Origin: a virus
DNA: 33,706 bases
Strand: one strand, 5' to 3'
IMG/VR virus record: IMGVR_UViG_3300043436_001123
Span: 1-33,706 of that record
This document shows, in pieces, positions 3,015 to 24,523 of this stretch (its first letter is position 1; the number at the start of each line of letters is the position of its first letter). The position numbers and the translations under genes are program-made. The notes below the pieces were generated by a model. That model was not told where the DNA came from, did no database searches, and worked only from the letters and a program-made list of their open reading frames with translations.

Positions 3015-3590
3015 TTATTTTGCTTTTTTGGTAAAAAATACTTTTGTTACGTTTTCAAATAATTCTTTTGGATCTTGTTTTGCAAACTTAGCTGCACCAT
3101 TGCTAGCCGCTGCATCCGCTGTGGCTGTAGGTTGTTCAACTAATAGCTGTGTCAATCCTAAAAGCCCTTCAATCACTGTGTTTGCCTTGTTTAGCTTTGC
3201 TTCATATTCAGCAAATTTGCCTTCGTATGATGCAAACTTTGATTCGTAAGAACTAAACCTTTCGTTTGTGCTTTGCTCAATCTTTGCAAAACGTGATTCT
3301 ATTTCAATGCTCGGATCTTCAACCTCAATTACAGGTTCTGCCGGTGTAATGCTTTCGATAATGCCATTGTCAACAAGTACGATTTTAGTACCGTCAGCAA
3401 GGATGTGCTCGCCTGCTGGTGCTGGCTCTAAACCAATCATTACCATACCGCCTACCTCTAACTTATCAACGGTTACTTCAGTGCCATCCATTAAGGTTGC
3501 ACTGATCATTTCGGTTTTAACTTCGCCCGATGGTGCTGGCTCATCCATTAACGCCAATTTCAACTTTTGTAATATTTCTTTTGCGTTCAT
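3015..3590 (-). CDS. Scaffold-like protein with beta-rich N-terminal domain
   Basis: 191 aa in two parts. Residues about 1-95 are beta-rich and contain TLMDGTEVTVDKLEVGGMV and AEHILADGTKIVLVDNG-like turns, resembling the small decoration or carboxypeptidase-like domains often seen next to phage scaffolds. Residues about 96-155 form a heptad-like coiled coil with three near-repeats of 'SYESKF / SYEGKF / EYEAKL'. A short C-terminus is rich in Lys and Phe, as expected for a scaffold segment that binds capsid protein. The position between protease and capsid genes supports an internal scaffolding role. Its start context shares an 18-nt identical stretch with the gene starting at 10863. Confidence 0.65.
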   Translation of the reverse strand: MNAKEILQKLKLALMDEPAPSGEVKTEMISATLMDGTEVTVDKLEVGGMVMIGLEPAPAGEHILADGTKIVLVDNGIIESITPAEPVIEVEDPSIEIESRFAKIEQSTNERFSSYESKFASYEGKFAEYEAKLNKANTVIEGLLGLTQLLVEQPTATADAAASNGAAKFAKQDPKELFENVTKVFFTKKAK

Positions 3591-3604
3591 AATGTATTGT
3601 ATAT

Positions 3605-4186
3605 TTATTCAGTGATTGGTGTAAATAGTAGTTCAACTATTTTTTTTAGCTTTTGTTCCGCGCTTTCTTTTGGCTTATCGTAATCAAAAAAACCCTCAAC
3701 GCTAAAACCTTTAAGTTTGTTTTCTTTTACGGCCTGCCATGCTTCGTCATTCTCAACATACATCGAACCAAACCAGCTACCATCGGCCGCATCCTCATAT
3801 CCTTTCATTGGCAATATTCCACGCTCGGCATCGGTAATAAACGATTCAAATAAAACTACCCCTTCAAGTTTTAACTGCTCATCGTGCATAACGTTGACGT
3901 TCTTTTGATAGCCACGCTTTGCGTATTTAATAGCAATCTTTTGGATGGTGTCTTTTGAGAATTTTACATAGTGGTTGCCCATTTCATCGTTAGTCCGAAA
4001 TATTAATTTGTCGGCTAACATCAAAGGGCCGCTAATAATGCGGCGATCTTCGCTCTCAATCTTGTATGCTTGGTGCTGGTTAAAGGCAATAAAGTCCTTT
4101 TCGATTGCGGGTAAATCTACCAGCGCAATGTAATCGACTTCGCTATTGTCATCCCTTATCCGTAACTCATAAACTGGAATATCCAT
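3605..4186 (-). CDS. Prohead protease, XkdF / peptidase S78-like
   Basis: 193 aa. The N-terminus (VDYIALVDLPAIEKDFIAF) matches the opening of XkdF-like putative serine proteases, which read 'IALVDxPAIxxxFxAF'. A His lies in NVNVMHDEQ (near residue 100) and a Ser in KGFSVEGFFD (near 163), in the order and spacing expected of the herpes/phage prohead protease catalytic residues. The protein would cleave scaffold and possibly capsid protein during head maturation. It is the first gene of the head block, after a 120-nt gap that follows the tape measure. No Shine-Dalgarno sequence is present; the leader is AT-rich. Confidence 0.8.
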   Translation of the reverse strand: MDIPVYELRIRDDNSEVDYIALVDLPAIEKDFIAFNQHQAYKIESEDRRIISGPLMLADKLIFRTNDEMGNHYVKFSKDTIQKIAIKYAKRGYQKNVNVMHDEQLKLEGVVLFESFITDAERGILPMKGYEDAADGSWFGSMYVENDEAWQAVKENKLKGFSVEGFFDYDKPKESAEQKLKKIVELLFTPITE

Positions 4187-4306
4187 AAAGTAATGTATAT
4201 TTTTTTGTGGTTTGGTTTAAATGGGTTATTTTAGCTTTTTGGTTTAAGTTTAATTTTTAGTAAGCAATCGAACCCCCGCTACGTTTCCACGTTGGCGGGT
4301 TTTTTA
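4187..4306. terminator. 120-nt gap with a hairpin whose T tract faces right
   Basis: CCCGC (4275-4279) pairs with GCGGG (4295-4299), with an inner ACGT/ACGT stem (4281-4284 and 4289-4292), and TTTTTT follows on the plus strand (4300-4305). On the minus strand, the coding strand here, there is no T tract after the hairpin. It is therefore a plus-strand terminator by form, or a 3'-end protector for the tape-measure message. The remaining gap is AT-rich; I see no TANNTTTG promoter on the minus strand. Confidence 0.6.
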
Positions 4307-6148: not shown

Positions 6149-6149
6149 T

Positions 6150-8368: not shown

Positions 8369-9522
8369 CTTAATTGTCTTTGGCGTGTTTGGTTTATGTC
8401 TATGTCAACTTCAAACGGTCGCAGCCTATTGTTGATGTACTTGCTATATTCGTATGTGTTATTCTTTAATGTTACCGGATAATAGTATCCGTCTTGCTCC
8501 ATGTAAATTTGAGGCGATGTAATTAACTCACTAAGCCATGTAAATTCATTATCTGTCGGTGCATCCATAGTAAGCCGCAAAGACAATACCTCTCTATTTT
8601 CGTAATTTGTTTTTGTTTCATTGTAGACATTGTTAGCATCAAAGTAAGTTACCGATGCAGCCGCTTGTCTGAAGTCGCGCTGTGTAAATGACTTACGTTC
8701 CACATCCGATGTAAGGCGGCTCAATAGGTCAAATGTTGCTGTGTCATACATACCCCACTTATTAAGGAAGTAAAGGTTTGTAGGCGTGTATTTTTGGTTG
8801 CACGATAGTACAACTCTGAATTTATCAAACGTGTTAAAATACACATCGTAATACTTCACAGCATCGGTTATAATATTTCCTAACCTTGCATTTATTGCAG
8901 CGGTTCCGATGTCTAACTGAACATACCCACCGTTTGCGTATGTGCTGCCATCGGTGGTGGTTGCTATGAGTGCATTGCTTTGATTGTAGGTATCTACTTT
9001 AAGCGTGAGCGTTGCATTTGTTTTAAATGGAATCAACAACTTTGCCCCCGTATTGATACGCGCCCCCGTTGGCCGGTTCGTGTAGAACTTGTTTAGCTTA
9101 CTTGTGCTGTCAAATGTTTTGCGTTTAAATGCCGGTGGTGCCCAATTATAGGCGCGCACTTCGCCCGATGCTAAATTACTTGTTGTTATACCGCTTACAT
9201 CCTCGCCAAACCTTATTTGATACAGTTGACTTATTTGCCCCGATGCTGAAGGCTGACAAAGATAAACATCGTCAGCAGCGTTTTCGGGTACAAACCAGGA
9301 ATAAGTAAACCCATTGCGCACAATCGGCCCCGCGTCAAAGTAGCCGTTTAGCGTTGTAGGATCTGGAAACTGTTTTACGCGCACTTGTTGCACCCCGCCA
9401 ACGAATATGTCGAACACGAATTTAAAATCTTGCCCCGCTACGTTTGTGCTGCTTACAACGTGCCACAATGAATCTTGTACCGATGGTTCGCCTGATGGTG
9501 CGAATAATGATGTTATTGCCAT
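8365..9522 (-). CDS. Tail-tip / minor tail protein
   Basis: 385 aa, beta-rich, no signal peptide or membrane segment. It reads as a Bacteroidota-phage minor tail protein: an N-terminal sandwich-like region (FKFVFDIFVGGVQQVRVKQF), then YQIRFGEDV, NKWGMYDTATFDLLSR near residue 275, and a C-terminal region ending PFEVDIDINQTRQRQLR. The 'NKWGxxD' segment recurs in such tail proteins as far as I recall. It starts directly after the TAA of the gp10-like gene (TAAATG) and overlaps the 41-aa gene. The role (distal tail or receptor-binding platform) is inferred from its place before the hub protein and tape measure. Confidence 0.6.
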   Translation of the reverse strand: MAITSLFAPSGEPSVQDSLWHVVSSTNVAGQDFKFVFDIFVGGVQQVRVKQFPDPTTLNGYFDAGPIVRNGFTYSWFVPENAADDVYLCQPSASGQISQLYQIRFGEDVSGITTSNLASGEVRAYNWAPPAFKRKTFDSTSKLNKFYTNRPTGARINTGAKLLIPFKTNATLTLKVDTYNQSNALIATTTDGSTYANGGYVQLDIGTAAINARLGNIITDAVKYYDVYFNTFDKFRVVLSCNQKYTPTNLYFLNKWGMYDTATFDLLSRLTSDVERKSFTQRDFRQAAASVTYFDANNVYNETKTNYENREVLSLRLTMDAPTDNEFTWLSELITSPQIYMEQDGYYYPVTLKNNTYEYSKYINNRLRPFEVDIDINQTRQRQLR

Positions 9523-10152: not shown

Positions 10153-10863
10153 CGAATGCCCTTTTTGTTTTAATATAATTCAAATCATTTAAGAACTGCA
10201 ACACCGGTAAATCCATTGCCTCGTTTACGCTGATAGCTTCAAACTCCGATACCATTTTGGCATTGTAAATCCATCCAAAGTTTGATGTAAACCCTGTAGG
10301 ATCCGGTTTGCCTCCGCTTCCGGTATCATCTTCGCCGTCATCTCCTGCACTAAATAAGGATGCAAAGCCTTCATTGATTCCGTAAAAACTGCGTAAAAAA
10401 AAACCGCTGCATGGTACGCAGCCGCAAAATCAAGGTGTTTCATGTCATCGGCAATAAGTTCGTGTTGCCATGCCTCCGGCTTTGTTGGCTTTAACCATTT
10501 GTAAGGTGTGGCCATAGATGCCAATATCAAATGCAGATTGCCTATAATGTCCGCGCTGAATGTCGCAACCTCAATATAACGGCCTGCGTTAAACGGTGGG
10601 CGTTTCAAATCATAGTTAAATTTATAGAGCCTACCATTTGCACGGTAAAAATTACGCGGCTTGTCTTTCTCAATATTCTGCATTTTGATGCTGAATGCCT
10701 TAGATACCTTTGTACATACCTTGTTGAACTGTTTAAGGCTCATGGCGTTAATCTGGTCGGTATTGTAACCCGTCATAGCCTTAACGTACTGCACAGCCTT
10801 ATCCTCATCGTTTAAGGCATAGTTACTAATTCTGTAAACCTCTTGAAATTGTGCTACATTCAT
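10121..10863 (-). CDS. Predicted -1 frameshift product (gpGT-like), 247 aa
   Basis: Zero-frame codons GTT TTT TTT TAC (10404-10393) give the heptamer T TTT TTT, a canonical -1 slippery site, at Phe155-Phe156. After a -1 shift the frame is open for 91 more codons to TGA at 10123-10121. The new tail reads LRSFYGINEGFASLF, then an acidic Gly-rich linker (AGDDGEDDTGSGGKPDP), then GFTSNFGWIYNAKMVSEF and LPVLQFLNDLNYIKTK. It looks like a folded domain joined by a linker, not random translation. It overlaps the next gene by 32 nt. I saw no clear downstream pseudoknot. An internal ATG (MVSEF) could also start a separate short product. Confidence 0.6.
10225..10863 (-). CDS. Tail assembly chaperone, unshifted form (gpG-like)
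   Basis: 212 aa in the zero frame. It starts at ATG 10863, 16 nt after the terL stop. The N-terminal two thirds are helical (YRISNYALNDEDKAVQYVKA, KQFNKVCTKVSKAF). A YHAAVFFYAVF segment is encoded by a run of nine T (10403-10395), after which this frame continues for 56 residues, ending MPKWYRSLKLSA. I interpret it as the short product of a frameshift pair of the lambda gpG/gpGT type, on three grounds. The slippery run is in the correct register, both downstream frames look like real protein, and the gene lies upstream of the tape measure. I do not recognise sequence similarity to any named chaperone. Confidence 0.65.
   Translation of the reverse strand: MNVAQFQEVYRISNYALNDEDKAVQYVKAMTGYNTDQINAMSLKQFNKVCTKVSKAFSIKMQNIEKDKPRNFYRANGRLYKFNYDLKRPPFNAGRYIEVATFSADIIGNLHLILASMATPYKWLKPTKPEAWQHELIADDMKHLDFAAAYHAAVFFYAVFTESMKALHPYLVQEMTAKMIPEAEANRILQGLHQTLDGFTMPKWYRSLKLSA
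10395..10403 (-). promoter_or_regulatory. Slippery run for -1 ribosomal frameshift
   Basis: Nine consecutive T on the coding (minus) strand, in the register G GTT TTT TTT TAC, so the tRNAs on TTT TTT can re-pair one base back. The run lies where the unshifted and shifted frames of the putative tail chaperone part company. Confidence 0.65.
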
Positions 10864-10879
10864 AATGTATTGTATAATT

Positions 10880-13045: not shown

Positions 13046-13539
13046 TTTTTTATGTTTTCTCCTAATAATTTTGCAGGGTTGCCAGCGTATTTCATACTCG
13101 GTGCCATAACTAACCCCTTTGTAATTACAGAACCCATACCAATCATGCAACGTGCTGGAATCATTTTGCGCTGATGTATAACAGCGTTTAACCCAATGTT
13201 TGTTTCTTTGCCAATGTTCGCATGGCCGCCAATCTTTGCACCGCAAGAAATGGTTACCCCGTTATGAATAAACGCATCGTGGCCAACGTGCGCGTGTTTC
13301 ATAATGTAAGCGTTCGGCCCAACATAGGTGGTTTGCTCAACACCTGCATCAATCGTAATCAATCCCGTTAGTATTGCCCCGTTACTAATTCGCACGCCCT
13401 TTGTACTTTCTTTACCTTTCCATTCGGCTGGTGCGCCAATTATGCAGTACGGCCCTATCTGCACGTTTTCCTCAATTACAACTCCATCGTAAATTATGGC
13501 GGTCGGATGTATTACCGCTGTTTCATGTATTGCTTTCAT
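13042..13539 (-). CDS. Left-handed beta-helix acyltransferase (hexapeptide repeat)
   Basis: 165 aa from ATG 13539; a TTG two codons upstream is less likely. It is built of hexapeptide repeats of the form [IV]-G-x-x-x-x: HPTAIIYDGVVIEENVQIG, TTYVGPNAYIMKHAHVG, HNGVTISCGAKIGGHANIG and TNIGLNAVIHQ. The ending GSVITKGLVMAPSMKYAGNP is the usual LpxA/maa-family end, with a conserved NPAK. A His in KHAHVGHDAF fits the catalytic His of LpxA-type enzymes. The family transfers acetyl or other acyl groups to sugars. Lying between two glycosyltransferases, it probably decorates a glycan. It overlaps the 94-aa gene upstream by 17 nt. Confidence 0.85.
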   Translation of the reverse strand: MKAIHETAVIHPTAIIYDGVVIEENVQIGPYCIIGAPAEWKGKESTKGVRISNGAILTGLITIDAGVEQTTYVGPNAYIMKHAHVGHDAFIHNGVTISCGAKIGGHANIGKETNIGLNAVIHQRKMIPARCMIGMGSVITKGLVMAPSMKYAGNPAKLLGENIKK

Positions 13540-13807: not shown

Positions 13808-14702
13808 AATCTATACACGCTTGTTTGTTATTGATAAGATAATTCATATTTTTATACCAATCCGATTGTTTCTCAACCCACAATACCGGTGCATCGTCAT
13901 TGCTGTACGGTGCTACCTTGCTGCATATTACGGGTAATTTCTTACACGCCGCCTCTAATAGTTTTAAGTTTGACTTACACCCGTGCCATTCGCTTTGCTC
14001 CAAAGGTACAAGCATAATTTCTGCATGAGCGAACATAGCCATGTAGTTTAACGGTGGCAATCCTGGCAGGGGTAGGTTTGATAATGTCAACCCCGCTGTA
14101 AAGTGGCTAAACATACGCCGCCATGTTTCGCTTTCAACATACCCACCCATTACCATCGTGATCTTGTTTGCGTGTGATTGTAGGCGCTTTATCGGGTTTT
14201 TCAATATTGCGATGTCGGGCTCATGGCTTGAACCGCCCGCCCAAAATATACGAGTGCGTTCCGATGGCACTTTGTCCTGTGTAAACTGATGTTCGCCATA
14301 AGGTAAGGCGTTAGGGAATATGTGTACGTTATCATTGAACGGCCTAACCTTTGCAGCAAGTTGTTCATTGGTTACGGTTACCATATCGGCCATGCGGATG
14401 TTGTTTTCAATCCTTGCAGCCATTTGTTGATATGTATGATAATTCGGATGGTTTGCCGGTAACACCCAGTAATCGTCTAAGTCCAAAACTACTTTGCAAT
14501 TTAGCAACTCTTTGAGTGCAGGCCAATCGTTATCGAATACGCTAATACGGTTGTAAAGCAATACATCCCACCCTTCCGATAGTTTCTCCTCTGTGGGTAG
14601 GTTAGTTACGAATGCTTCGACATCGGGCATAAACCCAAGGGGTAATACAACGCGATGGAAACCGCATCCACTATCGGGATATGAAAGGCCGAGTATCTTC
14701 AT
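13710..14702 (-). CDS. Glycosyltransferase, GT-B / family 4-like
   Basis: 330 aa from ATG 14702, which overlaps the upstream stop as ATGA. The N-terminus (KILGLSYPDSGCGFHRVVLP) is a GT-B first strand and glycine-rich loop. VVLDLDDYWVLPANHP follows near residue 80, as in phage and bacterial GT4 proteins. Then come MVTVTNEQLA, NVHIFPNALPY and RIFWAGGSSHEPDI, the donor-domain opening. The C-terminal half has EIMLVPLEQSEWHGCKSNLKL and LLEAACKKLPVICSKVAPY, with the glutamate pattern (LEA...PVI) that contacts the nucleotide sugar. It would transfer a sugar in the cytoplasm. Target unknown: host surface glycan, virion protein or DNA base. Confidence 0.85.
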   Translation of the reverse strand: MKILGLSYPDSGCGFHRVVLPLGFMPDVEAFVTNLPTEEKLSEGWDVLLYNRISVFDNDWPALKELLNCKVVLDLDDYWVLPANHPNYHTYQQMAARIENNIRMADMVTVTNEQLAAKVRPFNDNVHIFPNALPYGEHQFTQDKVPSERTRIFWAGGSSHEPDIAILKNPIKRLQSHANKITMVMGGYVESETWRRMFSHFTAGLTLSNLPLPGLPPLNYMAMFAHAEIMLVPLEQSEWHGCKSNLKLLEAACKKLPVICSKVAPYSNDDAPVLWVEKQSDWYKNMNYLINNKQACIDYGERLYEWAIREYNFADINARRKAAFENLIGT

Positions 14703-14919: not shown

Positions 14920-15165
14920 TTATTTTATTTTCCCTCCTAAATAAGCCGCGCCTAATAACGTGGCTATAATTGTGCTACACTCATTGGGCAATATTAGTAA
15001 TAAAATGCACATCCAAAACGCCATACACGTTACACAGTCCAAAGGCTTTAACCTCCGACCAGGTGCATAGTTGTAAAAGCGTTTAATGACTTTGTGAACG
15101 CCTAACACCTCAACAAAGGTAAAGGCAAACAATACCGCCGCAATGATTGTAATGATGTAACTCAT
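14920..15165 (-). CDS. Small membrane protein
   Basis: 81 aa with two hydrophobic segments: IITIIAAVLFAFTFVEVLGV (about 4-23) and FWMCILLLILP with a following TIIATLLGAAYLGG (about 50-78). A short basic cytoplasmic-type loop (KVIKRFYNYAPGRRLKPLDC) with a CVTC pair lies between them. It resembles small two- or three-pass proteins often found in Bacteroidota phages ('LDCxxCxxFW'), whose function I do not know. Its start overlaps the stop of the sigma-like gene (ATGA). A role in glycan flipping or membrane anchoring of the neighbouring enzymes is conjecture. Confidence 0.65.
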   Translation of the reverse strand: MSYIITIIAAVLFAFTFVEVLGVHKVIKRFYNYAPGRRLKPLDCVTCMAFWMCILLLILPNECSTIIATLLGAAYLGGKIK

Positions 15166-15680
15166 TGGTTTTTTATTAATTCTTTTAATTCCTGTTTAAC
15201 CTTAGCCAAAACAAACTGAACGTGATGTTTAGGTATTCCGTAATGCTTAGCCACCTTGTCGCACGATCTAAGTTCAATGTATGAATTAAAAAGCAACGCC
15301 TCGTGATGGTCTGTGATGCTTCCGTTCTGCATCTTGTTTACGATTGCCTTACTTGCAACGTGTACGCTGTCGCTATAATCTACGCCCGTCATTTGGCTAT
15401 AAAGGTAGTTGCTTAGCTTTTGCATGTCTTTCTTTCTAAACTTAGTATAAAACACGCTTGTTGAACTTGTTGCCATGTTCCATACTATCTTAAGCGCAAA
15501 GGCTAACAACTTATCACGATCTTTTAATTCGATTATCTTTTCACAGGGTTGCTGCAGTAATGCCAGTGCCAATTCCTGTCTGAGGTCATCTTGCAAACTC
15601 TCATGGCTGCATTTACCAATCAAAGTGTTTACTTCTTTGCTTAGGTAAATTTGCTCAATATATTGGCGGCAGTCAGTCAT
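15162..15680 (-). CDS. Sigma-factor-like / HTH regulatory protein
   Basis: 172 aa. Residues about 25-75 (LQDDLRQELALALL, ... KLLAFALKIVWNMATSS) resemble the region 2 helices of small sigma-70-like factors ('DLxQExxLxLL'). The C-terminal 50 residues (HHEALLFNSYIELRSCDKVA, then KHYGIPKHHVQFVLAKVKQEL) read as a region 4-like helix-turn-helix. The middle (FYTKFRKK) is basic. The position between early DNA-metabolism genes and late packaging and structural genes fits a middle/late transcription regulator. Similarity is weak by eye and this is a pattern-based call; a plain HTH protein is the main alternative. Confidence 0.5.
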   Translation of the reverse strand: MTDCRQYIEQIYLSKEVNTLIGKCSHESLQDDLRQELALALLQQPCEKIIELKDRDKLLAFALKIVWNMATSSTSVFYTKFRKKDMQKLSNYLYSQMTGVDYSDSVHVASKAIVNKMQNGSITDHHEALLFNSYIELRSCDKVAKHYGIPKHHVQFVLAKVKQELKELIKNQ

Positions 15681-15702
15681 AATGCGTATCGAAACATAAA
15701 TT

Positions 15703-15792
15703 TTACATTGATGCCAATAAAATAATTAAGAACGCTAAGGCTGCAACTGCAACGAATATCCAAGGCATTAACTTTTCTTTTGATGTTTTCAT
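15703..15792 (-). CDS. 29-aa single-pass membrane peptide
   Basis: A short frame from ATG 15792 to TAA 15703 encodes MKTSKEKLMPW followed by one hydrophobic stretch (IFVAVAALAFLIILLASM). It sits in an otherwise empty 124-nt gap. A charged N-terminus plus a single transmembrane helix is a typical phage micro-protein design. There is no Shine-Dalgarno sequence, and function is unknown. The call rests on the clean membrane profile and the exact fit to the gap. Confidence 0.5.
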   Translation of the reverse strand: MKTSKEKLMPWIFVAVAALAFLIILLASM

Positions 15793-15804
15793 ACCCAAAT
15801 GTAA

Positions 15805-16110
15805 CTAATTCTTTTTATCTGCAATGTATTTTTTAACCATTGCTTTGACTTCACTGTGGTACTTCGGTTCTATCTTAAACCCGATGTAAACCTTTTCCGG
15901 CCCTTTAGGCCTGCCAACTGGGCGTTTAAGTGGTTCGGATGCAAAGACAGTACATTCAAAAGTGTGGTATCGGTTTGGGCTATCAACTGAGAAAAACTGA
16001 ATGATGCCTTTATTGTTTCGGTAGTCGAACTCGCCAACATAATCATGATGCTCTGCAAAGTAATCGATAACGTATTTTTCCGCTTCTTGTATTGTGTTAA
16101 AGTTTTTCAT
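15805..16110 (-). CDS. 101-aa protein with AT-hook-like motif
   Basis: 101 aa. An N-terminal alpha/beta region (TIQEAEKYVIDYFAEHHDYV) is followed by a KRPVGRPKGP segment near residues 72-81. This matches the 'GRP' core of AT-hook minor-groove-binding motifs. A basic helix ends the protein. It may bind AT-rich DNA. The gene starts inside the end of the methyltransferase gene (overlap of 14 nt). No named family recognised. Confidence 0.6.
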   Translation of the reverse strand: MKNFNTIQEAEKYVIDYFAEHHDYVGEFDYRNNKGIIQFFSVDSPNRYHTFECTVFASEPLKRPVGRPKGPEKVYIGFKIEPKYHSEVKAMVKKYIADKKN

Positions 16111-17185
16111 TGTAAAGTTTTATTGTTTTAAATATTTGATATGCTACCTGTGGAACGATGGCATTGCCTGCTGCCTTTATGGATTCGTTTCGCCACTTAG
16201 GAAAGGTAATAGAGTCCAGTCGGGTGGAAATCCCATCATCTCCAGAACAAATGGGGGATTGAGTTGGGAAGTTTGACCAGTCTTGAGGTGATGAAACCTC
16301 TTTGTAAGGTTGTCTGATCTGTTTACCTGGCTGTCCGGCATTGTTGAATTCTTGCTGTCGTTCGCTGTTGGTGTCGGTAGCATCTTGTTGAAGTGAGCTT
16401 GTAGACAAGTTCCGCCTTGTTTGAATTGAGTGTTCTGTTGGTGTGATGTTGGTGTTGGGAGCATCCCGTAAAAGTTCATGTGATCTAATATTGAGTTCGG
16501 TCTGTTCTCCCCACAATTTCTGCTCATCATTGTTTCTGCTCCCGATGCTTTCAATGCCTCCACTCTTTCCGGATGCTCTCGCTGTACTGCAGTCGGGGTT
16601 GGTAGTAGTCCTTTCTGCTGTAATTGGTAGAATGCTTTCTCTGTATCGTGGTTGCTCTGTGGGTTTAGCATCCCCCCCCTTTCCCCGAATGAAGCGGTTA
16701 CTGTAGGCAACAAACCAGATCCTATCCCGTCTATGGGGAGCGTTGACGGATACAGCTGGCAGTACATACGGGAATACTTCGTACCCTTGAGCTTCCAAGT
16801 CAGCTTGCACTTCGTTGAATACCAACCCTCCATCCCAATTAACAAGGCCGAAAACATTTTCGCCCACAACCCAAGTTGGTTGAATTTCTCTAATTGCTCT
16901 AAGCATTTCTGGCCAGAGATGGCGCTCATCTGCTTTGCCCTTTCGCTTCCCTGCAAGGCTGTAGGGTTGACAAGGGAATCCACCGGTAACAATGTCGCAT
17001 TGTCCTCGGTAAATAGTGAAGTCTGTTTTAGTAATGTCGCCATGTGGTTGTGCTTTTGGGAAATGATGTTTTAATACTTTTTGACCGAATTCGTTCCACT
17101 CGCACCAGGCAATGGTTTTCCATCCCATCCAACGTGCTGCAAGTGAGAAACCGCCAATACCTTCAAATAGTCCGATGTGATTCAT
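16097..17185 (-). CDS. DNA cytosine C5 methyltransferase
   Basis: 362 aa from ATG 17185 (MNHIGLFEGIGGFSLA); the TTG at 17200 is an unlikely start. Motif I is GLFEGIGGFS (5-14). Motif IV is GGFPCQPYSLAG with catalytic Cys72; motif VI is GENVFGL (108-114); motif VIII is PHRRDRIWFVA (150-160). A long variable/target-recognition region (about 165-320) rich in Asn, Thr and Gln follows, and motif X is GNAIVPQVA near the C-terminus. It methylates cytosine at C5 using S-adenosylmethionine, probably to protect phage DNA from host restriction; no cognate restriction enzyme is present. The variable region is fully covered by another ORF in the +1 frame. Confidence 0.92.
   Translation of the reverse strand: MNHIGLFEGIGGFSLAARWMGWKTIAWCEWNEFGQKVLKHHFPKAQPHGDITKTDFTIYRGQCDIVTGGFPCQPYSLAGKRKGKADERHLWPEMLRAIREIQPTWVVGENVFGLVNWDGGLVFNEVQADLEAQGYEVFPYVLPAVSVNAPHRRDRIWFVAYSNRFIRGKGGDAKPTEQPRYRESILPITAERTTTNPDCSTARASGKSGGIESIGSRNNDEQKLWGEQTELNIRSHELLRDAPNTNITPTEHSIQTRRNLSTSSLQQDATDTNSERQQEFNNAGQPGKQIRQPYKEVSSPQDWSNFPTQSPICSGDDGISTRLDSITFPKWRNESIKAAGNAIVPQVAYQIFKTIKLYNEKL
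16177..17043 (-). CDS. Nested ORF in the +1 frame of the methyltransferase gene (LPTPT-repeat protein)
   Basis: 288 aa, entirely inside the methyltransferase gene and shifted by one base. It starts MATLLKQTSLFTEDNATLLP. It then has KCKLTWKLKGTKYSRMYCQL (about 79-98) and four copies of an L-P-T-[PV]-T motif (about 111-115, 146-150, 194-198 and 221-225). It ends with LNPPFVLEMMGFPPDW (261-276). I recall phage proteins with the same plan (CxLTWK, LLPTPTA repeats, LNPxFVxxMMGFP) annotated near cytosine methyltransferases, so I think it is a genuine second product or the trace of one. The repeats are four DNA units of the form CTNCCNACNCCNAC, which encode Asn-Thr-Asn-like repeats in the methyltransferase frame. 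Translation is not proven. Confidence 0.5.
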   Translation of the reverse strand: MATLLKQTSLFTEDNATLLPVDSLVNPTALQGSERAKQMSAISGQKCLEQLEKFNQLGLWAKMFSALLIGMEGWYSTKCKLTWKLKGTKYSRMYCQLYPSTLPIDGIGSGLLPTVTASFGERGGMLNPQSNHDTEKAFYQLQQKGLLPTPTAVQREHPERVEALKASGAETMMSRNCGENRPNSILDHMNFYGMLPTPTSHQQNTQFKQGGTCLQAHFNKMLPTPTANDSKNSTMPDSQVNRSDNLTKRFHHLKTGQTSQLNPPFVLEMMGFPPDWTLLPFLSGETNP

Positions 17186-17228
17186 AAAACGAATATACAA
17201 TTTTATAGTAAATTAATTAAAAGTATTT

Positions 17229-17759
17229 TTAAAACACCATTCCTTCAAACTTGCCGCCAGGCAAAAAATCACTATTTCCTATTTCTCTTTTATTTGTTTT
17301 AATTTCTTTTCCTTTGTTATGTTTGTTATTTTTTGTTATAACAACATTTGAGTTTGTTATAGCATTGTTATTAGATGCCCATCTGGACTGCATTCCAGCC
17401 TTACCGGCTGTGCTTCTTTTTTCTGAAATTTCTTCCCTTTTTTCAAAGTTTCGCAAAACACGTTTTGAAATAATAAATTCAGAATCTTCTAAAAACAACT
17501 CACAAACTTCAGTTGCATAATTTATAACAAGTTCAATTTTGTTATCGTTTGTTATAAGTTGTTTAGCAAGTGCTATAAAAATGTATTTCTTTTTAGGAAT
17601 TTTATGCTCTGGGTTTGAGTGCAACATTTCAATAATGCGCCAATAAATACCATAACCCTCCGCTCCATATTCTGCAATTAAAGCAGCTATTTTTGGATCG
17701 CTGGTAGGCTCATAATCATGAGCAAAATAGTAAGATTCTTTTGTATTATTTTTATTCAT
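17229..17759 (-). CDS. DUF4373 / Lin1244-like replication-associated protein
   Basis: 176 aa. The N-terminal domain (YYFAHDYEPTSDPKIAALIA, YGAEGYGIYWRIIEMLH) is the signature of the DUF4373 or Lin1244/Lin1753 N-terminal domain. This winged-helix-like fold is found in phage replisome organisers. A SEKRSTAGKAGMQSRWAS segment follows (about 110-127), again typical. The C-terminus is Asn/Lys-rich and disordered, which fits a flexible linker for recruiting the primase-helicase encoded just upstream. The start ATG 17759 lies exactly 8 nt after a strong hairpin (17768-17803). Confidence 0.8.
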   Translation of the reverse strand: MNKNNTKESYYFAHDYEPTSDPKIAALIAEYGAEGYGIYWRIIEMLHSNPEHKIPKKKYIFIALAKQLITNDNKIELVINYATEVCELFLEDSEFIISKRVLRNFEKREEISEKRSTAGKAGMQSRWASNNNAITNSNVVITKNNKHNKGKEIKTNKREIGNSDFLPGGKFEGMVF

Positions 17760-17850
17760 AAAATATAAAAAGGGTCTTGCAAGTAGTGCTGCAAAACCCT
17801 TTTAAATTGTGATAATTAAAACCACTTCTCCCGCACTACCAAGTGAAGTG
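17760..17850 (-). ncRNA. Tandem-hairpin element with complementary loops, copy A
   Basis: On the plus strand, hairpin 1 is AAAAGGGT-C-TTGCA (17768-17781) with TGCAA-A-ACCCTTTT (17790-17803), an 8-bp plus 5-bp stem with an 8-nt loop (17782-17789). Hairpin 2 is CACTTC (17823-17828) with GAAGTG (17845-17850). The loop of hairpin 1 contains GTAGTGC (17783-17789) and that of hairpin 2 contains GCACTAC (17833-17839), perfectly complementary over 7 nt. In the transcript hairpin 2 comes first; hairpin 1 is followed by a T-rich run and then the start codon of the DUF4373 gene. It fits an intrinsic terminator or attenuator with a kissing-loop option. The strand is assumed from gene direction. Confidence 0.55.
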
Positions 17851-17879
17851 ATTATTAATATAAAGATAAATAATATTAT

Positions 17880-19628
17880 TTATATTTCTGTATATTTTCT
17901 GGTTAATAAATCGTATGTAAATGATGTGTAGCCAATGCGGCCATGAAATGAAAACCTAACCTTTTGGCAATAAACGGTAACAATACCTTTGTTCGTATCC
18001 CGATGAATAGATAAACCATTATCAGCCTTATTAAAGAAATGCGCACTGCCTGCAACATCGTAAAGGGTAGCCGGTGGATATTGCCCCGACTGATCCTTTT
18101 GCAACTTTCTCGGATGTGCTACAATGAAAACATGAGTATCTGTTTTTACTGCAAACTCTTTTATTAAAGTTAAGGCCTCACTTATGTATTGTGTTTCTGA
18201 ATAGCCTTGCGGTATCTTATGTTCGATGTAATTCCAAGGATCAATAACAATACCTTTAACGCCTGTTTTCTTTACTACCTCAATAAGTTTTTCAATTATA
18301 CCTTGAATAGTTACATCAACTTGTGCAATGTTTATAAAGCTAAAATAATCATCTGTGAGCAAAATACTTTCTTCAAACTCAGCTTTGTTTATCCGATGGC
18401 TTGAGTCCTTTCTAAAGTTAAATGATTTGCCGATAAACTTTTCCATCAATTTAGTAACGTGAATAGCTGTAGGATTTTCAAATGAGCAAACAGAAAACTT
18501 CCAATTGTGGAATCTTGCAAGTGATGTAATAATGTAATCAATAAATTCACTTTTACCGCTACCAGGTGCGCCAGTTACAATAGTAACCAATCCACCGGCA
18601 AAGGTTAATAGTTCATCAAATTCCCCTATGCCAGCATTGCAGCCTTTTGGATAACCATTCATGTAATAATCTAAAACGGTATCGTAAACATCCTCAACGG
18701 TAATGATGCCATCAATAGGCCAGCGTTTAACTGTTTCTATCATAGTGTGCAGCATTTGCTTGCCATACTTTAAAAGCACATCGTTTGCATCTTTGCAATC
18801 GTTTGGGTATTCTATTTTATAGCAGCGATCACGGCCTAAGCGACGTGATATTTCATCTCTCAAATTGTTTCCTGGTTCATCATTATCAGTAAATAAAATA
18901 ATGCGTTCCTTATCTTCGAAATGATGCCAACAATTATCTAAATACTTTAATTGTTGGGTGCCGGTTCCTGCCCCGTTTGGAACGCTTACAACATTATAAA
19001 TGCCAGCTTCATGCAATGAAAGGCAGTCTATCTCACCTTCGACTATAATGGCTGTAGATTCATCTTTGATGCTGTCTAAGTTATAAAATATCAATTCGGC
19101 ATCTTTTGCCAATTTAAAGTCTTTATCTTTTGCTCTAAATTTAATATTAACTAATTCGTTTTCGTTGTAGTAATTAAAACAAATAGTTGGTACTTCAGTT
19201 TGTGCTTTTGGCATCCATTCAACAGATTCAGTAATATTCATTCTAAGTAATGTATTATTACTTATACCCCTTGTTTCAAAGTATTTTATTGTAGATGCAG
19301 AAAGTTTTTCCAAACGCGGCAAAGGTTTTTGATATTCCTTTTTATTATTTTGTACTTCGATGTTGTACTTTTTAGCTATCAACTTTATTGCAGAAATGTA
19401 ATCTGTATTTTCATGCTCCATTATAAATGCAATAGCATCGCCGGACTTTCCACAGCCAAAACATTTATAAATACCTTTTGCTTTGCTTACTTTAAACGAT
19501 GGTGTTTTTTCTTTATGAAATGGGCAAAGGCCTACCATTTCGGTAGCTTCCTTTTTTAAATTAACATAAGCAGAAATAATATCTACAATGTCGGCTTTAT
19601 GCTTTATTTCTTCGATGTTCGTTATCAT
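17880..19628 (-). CDS. DNA primase-helicase (CHC2-Toprim-RecA-like)
   Basis: 582 aa. A zinc-binding CHC2-type domain comes first, with CPFH (35-38) and CFGCG (56-60). A Toprim domain follows with VEGEID (196-201) and TDNDEPG (247-253), the metal-binding Glu and Asp-x-Asp. The C-terminal DnaB-type helicase has Walker A GAPGSGKS (353-360), a Walker B-like GIVIDPWNY, and VFIVAHPRK. This is the T7 gp4-like single-chain plan: it unwinds DNA and makes primers. No phage DNA polymerase is visible in the window, so the host polymerase is probably recruited. The start ATG 19628 overlaps the HNH gene stop (ATGA). Confidence 0.92.
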   Translation of the reverse strand: MITNIEEIKHKADIVDIISAYVNLKKEATEMVGLCPFHKEKTPSFKVSKAKGIYKCFGCGKSGDAIAFIMEHENTDYISAIKLIAKKYNIEVQNNKKEYQKPLPRLEKLSASTIKYFETRGISNNTLLRMNITESVEWMPKAQTEVPTICFNYYNENELVNIKFRAKDKDFKLAKDAELIFYNLDSIKDESTAIIVEGEIDCLSLHEAGIYNVVSVPNGAGTGTQQLKYLDNCWHHFEDKERIILFTDNDEPGNNLRDEISRRLGRDRCYKIEYPNDCKDANDVLLKYGKQMLHTMIETVKRWPIDGIITVEDVYDTVLDYYMNGYPKGCNAGIGEFDELLTFAGGLVTIVTGAPGSGKSEFIDYIITSLARFHNWKFSVCSFENPTAIHVTKLMEKFIGKSFNFRKDSSHRINKAEFEESILLTDDYFSFINIAQVDVTIQGIIEKLIEVVKKTGVKGIVIDPWNYIEHKIPQGYSETQYISEALTLIKEFAVKTDTHVFIVAHPRKLQKDQSGQYPPATLYDVAGSAHFFNKADNGLSIHRDTNKGIVTVYCQKVRFSFHGRIGYTSFTYDLLTRKYTEI

Positions 19629-20194
19629 AATTTAGGGGATAAAATGTCTAATAAATCGGATATTTCATTTAATAATTTATTGCTTTTTTTAATATTGCAA
19701 GTTTTGCAAAGCAACTGTAAATTTTCAATGTTTGAACCTCCACCTTTTGAATATGGATGTATGTGATCTATTTCAAGTTTTTCCCTTGATCCGCAATAAT
19801 TACAAGTACTTTTAAATCTTAAAAAAACCTCATACTTTGTTTTATTACAAATGTATCTTGATGCTTTTGGTAATTCAACAACCGGAAGTTCTTTGTTATT
19901 TATAAATCTTATAACATCATTTGGAATATTTAAATATTCAGTTACAGGTTCTTGCCATGCAGAAGGCATCCAAAAAAACAAAGTAAATATATTTTTTTTG
20001 TGTTTTGCAACATAACAAATGTTACCGTCCATTGTTATTCTAATTGCACCATTTAAATAAATACGATACTCGTCTATTGTATCATAAATACCTTCATTTG
20101 CAAAAAATTGCCATTTGTTAGAATAAGTGGGAATGTGTCTTTTAAAACCATTTTGTTCAATGTAGTTAATGAACTCATTATTTTGTATTGTCAT
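19625..20194 (-). CDS. HNH endonuclease
   Basis: 189 aa from ATG 20194. An upstream ATG at 20215 lies inside a hairpin and would add MMPIFYF, so it is unlikely. The HNH core is at the C-terminus: CNYCGS (131-136), LEIDHIHPYSKGGG (141-153) and CKTC (163-166). The two Cys-x-x-Cys pairs hold structural zinc and His144 is in the catalytic position. The first 110 residues (YSNKWQFFANEGIYDTIDEY, FFWMPSAWQEP) are not a domain I recognise and may bind DNA. It separates the VRR-NUC nuclease from the primase-helicase and is AT-richer than its neighbours, consistent with a mobile free-standing endonuclease. Its leader carries a tandem-hairpin element. Confidence 0.85.
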   Translation of the reverse strand: MTIQNNEFINYIEQNGFKRHIPTYSNKWQFFANEGIYDTIDEYRIYLNGAIRITMDGNICYVAKHKKNIFTLFFWMPSAWQEPVTEYLNIPNDVIRFINNKELPVVELPKASRYICNKTKYEVFLRFKSTCNYCGSREKLEIDHIHPYSKGGGSNIENLQLLCKTCNIKKSNKLLNEISDLLDILSPKL

Positions 20195-20297
20195 AAAATA
20201 AAAAATGGGCATCAAGTGTAAGGAGTTTACTTGAGCCCATTTAAATAATCAAAAATGAAAATTCAATCTGCTGCTCCTTACTTCAACTGATTGAATT
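20195..20297 (-). ncRNA. Tandem-hairpin element with complementary loops, copy B
   Basis: On the plus strand, hairpin 1 is AAATGGGC-AT-CAAGT (20203-20217) with ACTTG-A-GCCCATTT (20229-20242), an 8-bp plus 5-bp stem with an 11-nt loop. Hairpin 2 is AATTCAATC (20260-20268) with GATTGAATT (20289-20297), 9 bp with a 20-nt loop. Loop 1 holds GTAAGGAG (20218-20225) and loop 2 holds CTCCTTAC (20274-20281), complementary over 8 nt. Hairpin 1 ends 8 nt before the HNH start codon, followed by TTTATTTT. The design is the same as copy A but the stems and loops differ in sequence. In the minus transcript the hairpin-1 loop reads CTCCTTAC, an anti-Shine-Dalgarno-like sequence. Confidence 0.55.
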
Positions 20298-20359
20298 GTT
20301 AAACAAATATACTAAATAATAATTAAATCTTGTGGTTTCTTCAGTAGGGTTTTTCGGAA

Positions 20360-20794
20360 TTAAATTAATGTTTCCAGAAGTTTATCGTAAAATATAAAAA
20401 ATTCTTGTATTGTATGAATAAACTCATACATTCCGCCAGCGTTCCTTTCGCGTTGCTGTTCTGCTAATTGGTAAACTGAAGGTTTGTCTTTGCCCACCTT
20501 TATTTCAATCATTATGGCGCGGCCTTTTATGGTTGCTGAAATATCGGCTGTGCCTTTGCGCGTAGTTGATGTAATGTAACGCCCTGCAACTATTCGGCCT
20601 GCTGTATTTATCCTCGTTGCTCTGTGGCCTTCCCATTCCAAAAACTTGCAGATTGCAGTAGTTAAACCGCCCGACTTTGTAACGCATGGATAAGTAACGC
20701 GCATAGTATTACCACCAGCGGCGTTAAAGTAATCGGGAGCCGTGCGTTTGCACCATTCATGATGCGCTTGCTTGTATCTTACTGTCCAACTCAT
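20360..20794 (-). CDS. VRR-NUC domain nuclease
   Basis: 144 aa. The nuclease core reads GRYITSTTRKGTADISATIK, then GRAIMIEIKVGKDKPSVYQLAEQ with the PD-(D/E)xK triad (Asp in GTADI, Glu-Ile-Lys in IEIKVG). This matches the compact VRR-NUC fold found in phage replication modules, and QRERNAGGMYEFIHT is the conserved C-terminal helix and strand. The N-terminus (YKQAHHEWCKRTAPDYFNAA) is an extension. It may resolve branched DNA or process recombination intermediates; it lies with the SSB-like protein and primase. It is followed by about 60 nt before the tandem-hairpin element. Confidence 0.85.
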   Translation of the reverse strand: MSWTVRYKQAHHEWCKRTAPDYFNAAGGNTMRVTYPCVTKSGGLTTAICKFLEWEGHRATRINTAGRIVAGRYITSTTRKGTADISATIKGRAIMIEIKVGKDKPSVYQLAEQQRERNAGGMYEFIHTIQEFFIFYDKLLETLI

Positions 20795-20807
20795 AAGCGT
20801 AATTTAT

Positions 20808-20830
20808 GCCCCTACCAATTCGATAGGGGC
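20808..20830. terminator. Hairpin between SSB-like and VRR-NUC genes
   Basis: GCCCCTA (20808-20814) pairs with TAGGGGC (20824-20830), a perfect 7-bp stem with a 9-nt loop. No strong T tract follows on the minus strand (ATAAATTACGC), so it may stabilise or partly terminate the message; the next start codon lies 13 nt downstream. Confidence 0.55.
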
Positions 20831-20836
20831 GTTTGA

Positions 20837-21136
20837 TTAGAAAGGTAATCCAGAAAGATCTTCTTTTGTTGCCAGCGTTGGCGCTGCAAATGCCGGTGCC
20901 GTTGTTTCAGCTGGCTTCCAAGTATCAACTGTCATGTAAGGCTTGCCGTCCTTTGACTTTAGCAACTGGATGCGCAGTTGTTTTTCGCCGTTGTACTCGG
21001 TTAAAAGCTGTGGGTTTTCCTTTGCAAAGGTTACCAACTCATTAAGAGTAATAACGCCCGATGCTAAAACGAAATCGGGTTGGTTTGCTTTTGGTTGAAA
21101 TAGCCTAATACCTTTCAACAATGTTTGATCTGCCAT
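20837..21136 (-). CDS. SSB-like single-stranded DNA-binding protein
   Basis: 99 aa. The sequence (RLFQPKANQPDFVLASGVIT, NPQLLTEYNGEKQLRIQLLK, GKPYMTVDTWKP) has the alternating strand pattern of an OB-like fold. After an Ala/Pro/Thr-rich linker the protein ends KEDLSGLPF, similar to the acidic tip with a terminal Pro-Phe that SSB proteins use to recruit partners. I recall similar short proteins in Bacteroidota phage replication modules. It lies at the head of the replication genes with the nuclease and primase-helicase. The family assignment is by pattern, not a strong motif. Confidence 0.6.
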   Translation of the reverse strand: MADQTLLKGIRLFQPKANQPDFVLASGVITLNELVTFAKENPQLLTEYNGEKQLRIQLLKSKDGKPYMTVDTWKPAETTAPAFAAPTLATKEDLSGLPF

Positions 21137-21175
21137 AATTTATACGGATTAACCGGAGCCGTTGCGGTTTAAAGT

Positions 21176-21463
21176 TTATAAACAGTTTTCTGTTAATTTG
21201 TATAAATGATCATGCCATTGATCCCATGTAACACTTGATCCAAGAACGCCTTTATTTGCTTCATCTCCAATTAAATTATATTGCATTTTTTTACAAACTG
21301 CCCAAACATTATGCCAATGAATTTCTTTGTGCTTTGCCTCTTCATTTTTCATTTTAGCATATTCTTGTACTTCTATTAATCCAGGTTCTATTTCTAAAAT
21401 TTGTTCAATAGTTAATTTTGTAGAATCAAAATTTTCAAGTGCTTCAATAGTTGTAAAGTTCAT
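21176..21463 (-). CDS. Hypothetical 95-aa protein, first gene of the leftward operon
   Basis: 95 aa, AT-rich, not recognised. It is mainly helical and acidic (TIEALENFDSTKLTIEQILE), with a Trp/His-rich middle (HKEIHWHNVWAVCKKM) and VTWDQWHDHLYKL at the end. The ATG at 21463 is preceded by AAAACAAAATAAA, the A-rich leader seen in front of other genes. As the first gene after the divergent control region it would be expressed very early. Possible host-takeover or regulatory protein; no motif supports either. Confidence 0.6.
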   Translation of the reverse strand: MNFTTIEALENFDSTKLTIEQILEIEPGLIEVQEYAKMKNEEAKHKEIHWHNVWAVCKKMQYNLIGDEANKGVLGSSVTWDQWHDHLYKLTENCL

Positions 21464-21553
21464 TTTATTTTGTTTTAGTTAGATTGCAATACTACAACTT
21501 TTTATTTATAAAATAAATTTTTTTGTATCAACAAAGATACATAACATTGCAAA
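21464..21553. promoter_or_regulatory. Divergent control region, left half, with operator O1
   Basis: It holds the inverted repeat GTATC-aacaaa-GATAC (21525-21540). On the minus strand TATCTTTG (21539-21532) is a perfect match to the Bacteroidota -7 element TANNTTTG, but no TTTG lies 19 nt upstream of it. On the plus strand TAACATTG (21542-21549) is a one-mismatch -7 element with TTTT 19 nt upstream, only 4 nt before the ATG of the 53-aa gene. The operator overlaps the minus-strand -7 element and lies between the plus-strand elements. The rest of the stretch is an AT-rich leader for the leftward operon. Confidence 0.55.
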
Positions 21554-21715
21554 ATGAAGATACATAAGAACATAACAATAACCGAGGCCGCACAATTAAC
21601 GGGCAAAAGTAATAGCACTATCAAAAGCATTTGCAACGGTAACCGATCAAATACCGTTGGTATATTTAACCATCGCAAGATTGCTGGCGTTTGGTTTTTA
21701 TCAATAAAAATATAA
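21554..21715 (+). CDS. 53-aa helix-turn-helix regulator
   Basis: A short frame from ATG 21554 to TAA 21715. The protein starts MKIHKNITITEAAQLTGKS and continues SNSTIKSICNG, then FNHRKIAGVWFLSI. It has the layout of excisionase/MerR-type HTH proteins: 'ItEAAxLtGks...tIks', then a wing with 'hrkiaGvWfl'. It is flanked by two identical operators (GTATC-N6-GATAC), which suggests that it is the local transcription switch and represses or activates both directions. The predicted plus-strand -7 element ends only 4 nt before the ATG, so the mRNA may be leaderless. Confidence 0.6.
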   Translation: MKIHKNITITEAAQLTGKSNSTIKSICNGNRSNTVGIFNHRKIAGVWFLSIKI

Positions 21716-21776
21716 ATTTGTTTGTATCGAATAAGATACTATCTTTACACTTTATAACAATTTAAAACAAAACAAC
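21716..21776 (+). promoter_or_regulatory. Rightward early promoter with operator O2
   Basis: TTTG (21717-21720) and TATCTTTA (21740-21747) are separated by exactly 19 nt, the Bacteroidota sigma-ABfr spacing (TTTG-N19-TANNTTTG), with one mismatch in the last base. The inverted repeat GTATC-gaataa-GATAC (21724-21739) lies between the two elements, where a bound protein would block RNA polymerase. The leader ends with TTTAAAACAAAACAAC directly before the ATG at 21777. Confidence 0.7.
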
Positions 21777-21968
21777 ATGACAACACAAATTGCAAATTTA
21801 ACCGACAGCTTCACTGAACAACTAATGTTTTTACACAAACAATCTGTAGCCTGCCTTCGCATGATTATGATTGCTGAAGATGAAATCGAACGCAACCGAT
21901 GGGTTTCTGAATACACAGACAATCAAATCGAATTACTTAAACTTCAACAAGTAAACCACGCACTATGA
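21777..21968 (+). CDS. Hypothetical 63-aa early protein
   Basis: 63 aa, helical and hydrophilic (FTEQLMFLHKQSVACLRMIM, then RWVSEYTDNQIELLKLQQ). No motif or membrane segment is recognised; it may form a small helical bundle. It is the first gene after the best promoter in the window and overlaps the next gene by 4 nt (ATGA), so it is probably abundant early after infection. Function unknown. Confidence 0.6.
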   Translation: MTTQIANLTDSFTEQLMFLHKQSVACLRMIMIAEDEIERNRWVSEYTDNQIELLKLQQVNHAL

Positions 21969-22210
21969 TATTACTATTTATTCAAACCAAAGGAGAATTA
22001 CTATTTATTATTTCAGCCGGCTTACTTTATTGGGTAGCCTGGTTGTATTATCAACACGTTGTAAAACCAATTGACGATGAGCAAACTACAGATTATAATG
22101 AAAATGCCAAAGCATCTACGGGCATGGGCAATAGTCCGGCTGTATGTAAAACAACAGTAATTGATGAATGCCCACACTGTAACGGTAGTGGTTATATTTA
22201 CTTAAATTAA
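21965..22210 (+). CDS. 81-aa membrane protein with C-terminal CxxC knuckle
   Basis: The N-terminal 35 residues form a hydrophobic segment (LLFIISAGLLYWVAWLYY). A hydrophilic linker follows, and the end reads ECPHCNGSGYIYLN. A single CPHC-x-GSG unit of this type is half of a DnaJ-like zinc finger, seen at the C-terminus of many Bacteroidota phage micro-proteins. It is probably a single-pass inner-membrane protein with a cytoplasmic tail. It starts within the end of the upstream gene. Function unknown. Confidence 0.6.
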   Translation: MILLFIQTKGELLFIISAGLLYWVAWLYYQHVVKPIDDEQTTDYNENAKASTGMGNSPAVCKTTVIDECPHCNGSGYIYLN

Positions 22211-22648: not shown

Positions 22649-22670
22649 TAACAATAAAAAACAAAACAAA

Positions 22671-23342
22671 ATGAAGCAAGAACTATCAACAATCAGCACA
22701 ACCGAAATCATGAACATTGGCAAAGCATTTGCCGAATCGGGAATGTTTCCAGACATTAAATCAGCCGCTCAAGCAGTGGTTAAAATTCAAGCAGGTGCCG
22801 AAATGGGTATCCCACCATTCGCCGCTATGAGTGGCATTCACATTATACAAGGTAAACCTACAATAGGCGCTGGCCTTATGGCTGCCAATGTAAAGGCATC
22901 CAACAAATACGATTACAAAGTGATTGAGCAAACCGAAAAGATTTGCAGCATCGACTTTTATAAGGGCAAAGAAATGCTTGGCAATAGCACTTTTACGATT
23001 GAAGAGGCAAAGAAAGCCGGAACAAAAAACCTCGATAAGTTTCCCAAAAATATGCTATTTGCTCGTGCAATCAGTAACGGCGTTAAATGGTACACTCCAG
23101 ATGTATTTAGCGGCCCTGTGTACACACCTGAGGAGTTCGATGTGGTAACACAAGACATCAACCATACGGACATAAAAGAGGAGGTTACGCACGCTGTAGA
23201 GAAACTACCTTTACTCACTACCGTTGATGAACTAAAGGAGTTTAAAAAGATACTACCCGCCTATATTGTCAAAGATGCTTCGTTTATTGAAGCTGCCACA
23301 TTTCGTTACAATCTTATAATGGCTGAAGCGATAGCCGATTAA
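22671..23342 (+). CDS. RecT-like phage recombination / annealing protein
   Basis: 223 aa from ATG 22671, preceded by AATAAAAAACAAAACAAA. An earlier in-frame ATG (22605) lies within the upstream gene and is rejected. The pattern AAQAVVKIQAGAEMGIPPFA, SGIHIIQGKPTIGAGLMAAN, SNKYDYKVI and KFPKNMLFARAISNGVKWY followed by PVYTPEEF is one I know from a widespread phage family usually labelled RecT-type recombinase. Members are thought to bind ssDNA and promote annealing. No partner exonuclease is adjacent; the VRR-NUC protein is in the other operon. The C-terminal 60 residues are helical and variable. A terminator follows. Confidence 0.65.
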   Translation: MKQELSTISTTEIMNIGKAFAESGMFPDIKSAAQAVVKIQAGAEMGIPPFAAMSGIHIIQGKPTIGAGLMAANVKASNKYDYKVIEQTEKICSIDFYKGKEMLGNSTFTIEEAKKAGTKNLDKFPKNMLFARAISNGVKWYTPDVFSGPVYTPEEFDVVTQDINHTDIKEEVTHAVEKLPLLTTVDELKEFKKILPAYIVKDASFIEAATFRYNLIMAEAIAD

Positions 23343-24168: not shown

Positions 24169-24523
24169 GGAAAAGGAAATTATATCTATTCCAAAACCTA
24201 TTGATTCCCATGAAATATGTTGGGCTGAAATAACTAAAAGAATCAACAAAGTAAAAGGCAGATATTTTGTGTATGTACTAATTAACAAAGAGAATGTTAT
24301 CTATGTAGGTAGGTCTTTTAATTTATATTCTCGGTTATGTTTGCATAAATACCAAAAGCAATTTGATAGCGTTTATTTAGAAGAATATAAAACATACGCA
24401 CAATGCTGTGAAGCTGAGAAATATCTTATTAAACATTATATTCCTATAGAAAATATTTATGTTGGTTATCATAAAAAAATGATTATTAACCCGAACGCAT
24501 ACAAAACAAAACAACATGAGTAA
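24161..24523 (+). CDS. GIY-YIG endonuclease
   Basis: 120 aa. The GIY-YIG core is KGRYFVYVLINKENVIYVGR (about 31-50). It replaces Gly-Ile-Tyr with Phe-Val-Tyr and Tyr-Ile-Gly with Tyr-Val-Gly; Arg and His residues follow in SFNLYSRLCLHKYQ. A glutamate in CCEAEKYLIKHY (near 87) is in the position of the catalytic metal ligand. There is no extra C-terminal domain, so it is a minimal domain. It may be a free-standing homing endonuclease or a nuclease that degrades host DNA. It is the most AT-rich gene of the operon. Confidence 0.75.
   Translation: MSKEKEIISIPKPIDSHEICWAEITKRINKVKGRYFVYVLINKENVIYVGRSFNLYSRLCLHKYQKQFDSVYLEEYKTYAQCCEAEKYLIKHYIPIENIYVGYHKKMIINPNAYKTKQHE

Follow-up and report, generated by a model that had tools for sequence, protein, structure and literature searches.

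A putative RNA leader with complementary tandem hairpin loops before replication and homing-endonuclease genes of Bacteroidota phages

The window analysed here is the whole 33,706-nucleotide stretch of the IMG/VR virus record IMGVR_UViG_3300043436_001123. Its ends (1-127 and 33580-33706) are identical over 127 bp, and the record is probably a complete phage genome, circularly permuted or terminally redundant. A preliminary description had pointed to two copies of a tandem-hairpin design between replication-module genes; both proved to be genuine copies of one design, and both lie in the replication module, where the genes near them are mostly on the minus strand. Copy A stands before a minus-strand gene (17229-17759) for a predicted replication initiator or DnaD-like protein (Lin1244_N, PF14297, DUF4373; phrog_2562, replication initiation protein) and copy B before a minus-strand gene (19625-20194) for an HNH endonuclease (PF01844). 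A primase-helicase gene with CHC2 zinc finger, Toprim and DnaB_C domains (17880-19628, minus strand) is located between the HNH gene and copy A.

Read 5' to 3' on the minus strand, copy A consists of a promoter-like box, hairpin H2, an AT-rich linker, the GC-rich hairpin H1, a U tract and the ATG. The -7-like box TATCTTTA (17861-17868), which has one mismatch to TAnnTTTG, is placed just 5' of H2 (AATCACTTC[ACTTGGTAGTGCGGGA]GAAGTGGTT; 17820-17853), whose loop carries the word GTAGTGC at 17833-17839. The linker (17804-17819) was measured at 16 nt, not the approximately 19 nt first described, and is followed by the terminator-like H1 (AAAAGGGTTTTGCA[GCACTACT]TGCAAGACCCTTTT; 17768-17803), with GCACTAC at 17783-17789, and by the U tract TATATTTT (17760-17767), which reaches the ATG. 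As had been noticed before, the H2 loop word is the exact complement of the H1 loop word over 7 nt; both hairpins are stable and adjacent. The 8+5-bp stem with a bulge that had been described for copy A is indeed a hairpin, but the bulge corresponds to a C.A mismatch found on the plus strand only, and on the coding (minus) strand H1 forms a continuous stem of 14-15 bp with a U.G wobble. A search of the window for further targets of GTAGTGC in trans gave 3 matches, with 2.9 expected.

Copy B, likewise on the minus strand, has the same order of parts: the -7-like box TATATTTG (20304-20311), H2 (20260-20297) with the kissing word GTAAGGAG at 20274-20281, H1 (AAATGGGCTCAAGT[AAACTCCTTAC]ACTTGATGCCCATTT; 20203-20242) with the kissing word CTCCTTAC at 20218-20225, and the U tract TTTATTTT (20195-20202), which again reaches the ATG. 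The two loops are perfectly complementary over 8 nt and a one-nucleotide bulge is present in H1. The distance from H1 to the ATG is 8 nt in each copy, in agreement with the preliminary description.

A scanner for two neighbouring hairpins with complementary loops and a U tract, with a score of 50 as the cut, gave scores of 77 for copy A and 72 for copy B. None of 400 dinucleotide-preserving shuffles of the window reached 65, whether or not the U tract was required, and scores of at least 50 arose in these shuffles at 0.03 per genome, which bears out the earlier expectation that a chance match between such loops is rare. Among 331 loci (3.1 Mb), 45 matches scored at least 50, compared with 2 and 1 in two shuffled sets; this catalogue scan demanded a U tract, which is therefore partly a selection criterion there. 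Shuffled sequence had been proposed as the control that might refute the complementary-loop reading, and it did not do so, such pairs being far rarer in it than observed. For an independent test, minimum-free-energy hairpins before a T tract were picked regardless of loop complementarity, and a loop complement of at least 6 nt was present in 11 of 51, compared with 0.74 expected when H2 and H1 were swapped between loci. The remaining hairpins of this set had the appearance of ordinary terminators.

Homologues were gathered by a pattern search with the linker TAAGAACTTATTGCCC only, the loops being disregarded. Their loops read GTCGGAT, GTCGTAT, GTCGTTT, GTTGCAG, ATTGCAG or CCGTACA, each with a perfect partner in H1, and a related element with the loop ATGCGAC also has a perfect H1 partner. 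The allele counts were 44 for GTCGGAT, approximately 26 each for ATTGCAG and GTTGCAG, and 10 for GTCGTTT. Near-identical homologues display a double compensatory series, from GTCGGAT/ATCCGAC to GTCGTAT/ATACGAC and on to GTCGTTT/AAACGAC; loci L163 and L221 differ from L211 by one compensated loop pair, and near-identical elements carry AGTCCAGC/GCTGGACT or AGTCGAGC/GCTCGACT. Cultured phages give the clearest example: among Muminvirus isolates, loops GTGAGACG/CGTCTCAC were found in Flavobacterium phage hattifnatt9-1 and loops GTGGAACG/CGTTCCAC in snusmum9-1, snusmum6-2 and mymlan6-1, whose flanks are near-identical to those of hattifnatt9-1; Cellulophaga phages phi10:1 and phi19:1 have GTACGAC/GTCGTAC, and Tenacibaculum phage JQ has a 10-nt loop match.

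A formal count was carried out on five homologues in alignment A6, since the MAFFT alignment A3 misregisters the H1 loops. The structure was paired in 100% of cells, and two of the seven kissing pairs as well as two H1 pairs had changed on both sides, whereas pairing dropped to 28-49% in slid controls with the partner shifted by 1-3 columns. The paired compensatory changes in near-identical homologues indicate that pairing between the H2 and H1 loops is almost certainly under selection, and the natural compensated loop pairs already amount to a loop compensation test.

The same design, in unrelated sequence, was found 5' of primase, replication-initiator and homing-endonuclease genes. Its carriers are dozens of IMG/VR phages as well as cultured phages of Flavobacterium, Cellulophaga and Tenacibaculum. 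The 45 distinct downstream proteins belong mostly to replication-initiation, primosomal or DnaD-like PHROGs, contain primase domains or are HNH, NUMOD4 or GIY-YIG endonucleases. Elements at L108:4639-5344 and L109:1857-2320 are followed by genes of other kinds, for a C-5 cytosine methylase-like and a YspA/SLOG-family protein, which shows that the cassette is not restricted to replication and HNH genes. At loci with relatives of the primase the design recurs 5' of the primase gene in unrelated sequence, with loops ATTGCGC/GCGCAAT at L009 (primase 98% identical), GAGGGA/TCCCTC at L010, GAGCAG/CTGCTC at L001, GTAGTGAT/ATCACTAC at L013, GCTGCCAC/GTGGCAGC at L021 and GTCACAG/CTGTGAC at both L014 and L015. 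Copy B is retained with identical loops at L005, which has a related HNH gene. At the site equivalent to that of copy A, no element was found in L001, L005 and L009, in which the primase and initiator genes overlap directly. The lack of copy A at these loci and the unrelated leader sequences imply gain or loss of the leader, and replacement of its sequence, between close relatives; the element is a widespread, allelic and exchangeable cassette. When the window (19625-20311) is compared with L009 and L115, the leader of L009 lies directly 5' of the primase gene, whereas the window and L005 have an intervening HNH gene that is preceded by a leader of its own. This arrangement suggests that a homing endonuclease was inserted, or exchanged, at the leader.

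Within the 45 nt that lie 5' of the H2 loop word, 22 of 38 elements contain TAnnTTTG, the -7 motif of Bacteroidota (2.2 expected), copy A having a near match only; a sigma-70 promoter scan gave no excess above shuffles. H1 combines a GC-rich stem with an immediately following U tract, as an intrinsic terminator does, and that of copy A was the top terminator-like site within 15000-22000. In relatives, the consensus U tract after H1 is TTTTTTATTTT or similar. The ATG lies 8-12 nt past H1 in approximately 135 of 143 elements (spacings of 8, 9, 10, 11 and 12), and where it is 40-56 nt downstream (L240, L242, phi10:1 and phi19:1) the U tract still adjoins H1. A coding reading of the TTTTTTATTTTATG stretch ('FYFM') was ruled out because the H1-to-ATG spacing is no multiple of 3. 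Stem oppositions on the coding strand comprised 101 G.U and 3 A.C, and the coding strand gave the better fold in 31 of 33 elements, both figures being partly biased as the scan permits G.U. The promoter position and the sense strand of the RNA are strongly suggested.

Our preferred reading, held with little better than even confidence, is that the element is a compact, attenuator-like RNA leader in which H1 would act conditionally as an intrinsic terminator and also block ribosomes, with the read-through set by pairing of its loop with that of H2. Transcription would start at H2 or just 5' of it; H2 would fold first, and its loop could pair with that of H1 while the 3' arm of H1 is still to be transcribed, giving a kissing complex or pseudoknot. 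H1 and the U tract would form an intrinsic terminator acting in the cell, and H1 may also block ribosomes, since it ends 8-12 nt before the start codon. Co-transcriptional loop pairing could set how frequently H1 folds in time to affect termination. We would guess that H2, by binding the H1 loop, delays the closure of H1 and leads to more read-through, but loop pairing could equally have the opposite sign and stabilise H1. Initiator, primase or endonuclease would thereby be made early, in a tuned burst. Since the start codon usually follows H1 closely, only transcripts that extend past H1 allow the gene to be read, and H1 must therefore be conditional if it terminates; against this reading, complete termination at H1 would silence the gene behind it. 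In a linker-length test on 33 elements, the stretched linker was long enough to span a fully formed kissing complex in 25; it was too short in the other 8, which include the commonest subfamily, and there was no positive correlation; full intramolecular kissing may be strained. Of the interpretation in the preliminary description, the tuning of the downstream gene probably stands, and the terminator-like H1, the promoter box and the exchangeable cassette had gone unnoticed.

A possible but rather unlikely alternative is that the terminated leader (approximately 95 nt, comprising H2 and H1) acts in trans as a small RNA that kisses nascent leaders of the same allele, exerting copy-number or superinfection control over the replication genes with the loops as incompatibility types. 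The loop types are allelic and discrete, and the main linker subfamily has approximately one element per genome, before the initiator gene, as judged from about 30 records searched whole, in which two-match records were explained by a terminal repeat (G034) and by a probable chance match (G037). Virulent phages that share the same two Flavobacterium hosts carry two alleles between them, copies sharing one genome differ in their loops (the window, L242 and L100/L101), and the replication-gene setting resembles plasmid replication control (PMC10724649). However, compensation in cis needs no action in trans and multi-element genomes are few. A scan of contigs from 84,980 prokaryote species genomes with the 16-nt linker of one subfamily gave 45 matches, of which none showed a recognisable element, and the Flavobacterium carriers in culture were reported as virulent (PMC7077304). 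Both results speak against a lysogeny-only role and make lysogenic immunity unlikely. That the element is a new class of phage RNA, whose two loops form a self-complementary lock and key by which same-allele leader RNAs recognise each other between molecules and a phage gauges its own genome or transcript number, is a shade more doubtful still; if true, co-infecting phages would be excluded or ignored by loop type, an allelic, RNA-only incompatibility in virulent phages.

Control of translation or mRNA stability with no terminator involved, in which H1 blocks ribosomes or shields the 5' end and loop pairing tunes the effect, comes close to the preliminary description but appears improbable. 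The stems are stable (about -19 and -16 kcal/mol), and in the majority of elements H1 is separated from the ATG by 8-12 nt. Even with the ATG 40-56 nt away, however, the U tract stays on H1, as expected of a terminator rather than of a ribosome block. We consider it very improbable that the element works at the DNA level, as single-stranded origin hairpins or as a recombination or homing site that is transcribed incidentally: its position at module borders beside homing endonucleases and replication genes and the lack of copy A at the equivalent site in close relatives would suit such a role, but the promoter box, U tract and ATG spacing are strand-specific, and the coding-strand stems accept G.U and hardly any A.C, in counts that are partly scan-biased. 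An ordinary terminator beside an unrelated hairpin with a chance loop match is refuted by covariation and retains practically no probability given the shuffles and the compensatory loop changes in independent lineages; in its favour, ordinary terminators make up the majority of the hairpins preceding T tracts in the unbiased pattern sample.

Nothing was found at gathering score in Rfam 15, including the C4 antisense RNA (RF01695), the weak matches near copy A being attributable to chance, and a literature search found no paper describing the element, a structured RNA widespread in Bacteroidota phages and lacking an Rfam family. Methods that look for RNAs by sequence could readily overlook it, since entire stems and loops are exchanged with their pairing preserved. 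The preferred attenuator-like leader can be compared with several known systems. Leaders of I-complex plasmids contain stem-loop I, a pseudoknot and the target of RNAI. In these plasmids (IncI, IncB and IncK), kissing loops are used, single loop changes yield compatible types, and a hairpin loop in the leader of the replication initiator pairs with sequence near the start codon (PMC10724649). Loop-to-start-region pairing before a replication initiator gene, as in the repZ-type leader, was also found here; the I-complex loop, however, is bound in addition by an antisense RNA made from the opposite strand and does not pair with the loop of a terminator hairpin, whereas in the phage element both loops are in one sense RNA and covary. 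By analogy, the element would be a structured kissing-loop leader of replication genes that behaves most like the I-complex pseudoknot leaders, and by the tests made it is a member of neither these leaders nor the phi29 pRNA. The latter, a part of the packaging motor, likewise has two mutually complementary loops in one phage RNA, variable in sequence between phages. It lacks the promoter-terminator-ORF layout, whereas the element described here precedes replication or HNH genes, sometimes twice per genome; a phi29-type packaging role was not indicated, the named carriers being siphovirus-type Muminvirus phages with annotated terminase large subunits.

With the C4 antisense RNA of P1 and P7 (RF01695) and the CI RNA of P4, a downstream gene is controlled by mutually complementary segments of a single phage transcript; in P4 the control is by termination in a primase-helicase operon, and the C4 and CI RNAs specify immunity types. 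Both are processed RNAs, and the phages that make them are temperate or satellite phages of Proteobacteria, whereas virulent phages are included here and the partners are two adjacent hairpin loops. For the PeSL cassettes, we know of no report of a second hairpin with a complementary loop. PeSLs are, as cited in PMC4503421, mobile promoter and stem-loop cassettes between exchangeable genes of T4-like phages. For the element described here, a promoter-like box and exchange between gene types were seen; the T4-like promoter and context are absent and the hosts belong to another phylum. Attenuators of the pT181 type have, as cited in PMC10724649, a terminator in the leader of a replication gene; they are driven by a countertranscript, whereas no conserved antisense promoter was noticed for the phage element.

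The element marks possible control of replication genes and homing endonucleases in the carrier phages, and the natural allele pairs in cultured Flavobacterium phages make the mechanism directly testable. The cultured Flavobacterium phage NC_048832 (L242) has two elements with different loops (13303-13391 and 14335-14446), one before a NUMOD4-HNH endonuclease gene and one 5' of the primase gene cluster, and would be a good experimental system. The loop pairs resemble a ready set of orthogonal RNA switches.

Other repeats were observed in the window. Three near-identical 21-nt repeats (AAATATACAATACATTATGAA; 3586-3606, 4182-4202 and 10859-10879) coincide with start codons of minus-strand genes and are possibly a common promoter or translation signal. 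A 49-nt repeat (6127-6175 and 8426-8474) is 71% identical between its copies, one of which lies at the start of the gene at 4307-6148. Repeats of the AAAACAAAACAACATGA type occur at 21760-21780, 22654-22674 and 24499-24519, 5' of plus-strand genes, and this A-rich start context contrasts with the T-rich stretch preceding the genes behind copies A and B. In L014, L127 and L146, H1 has an internal loop with GAGTAG opposite CGAAA, similar to the loop E or sarcin-ricin motif (AGUA/GAA), suggesting a defined three-dimensional fold.
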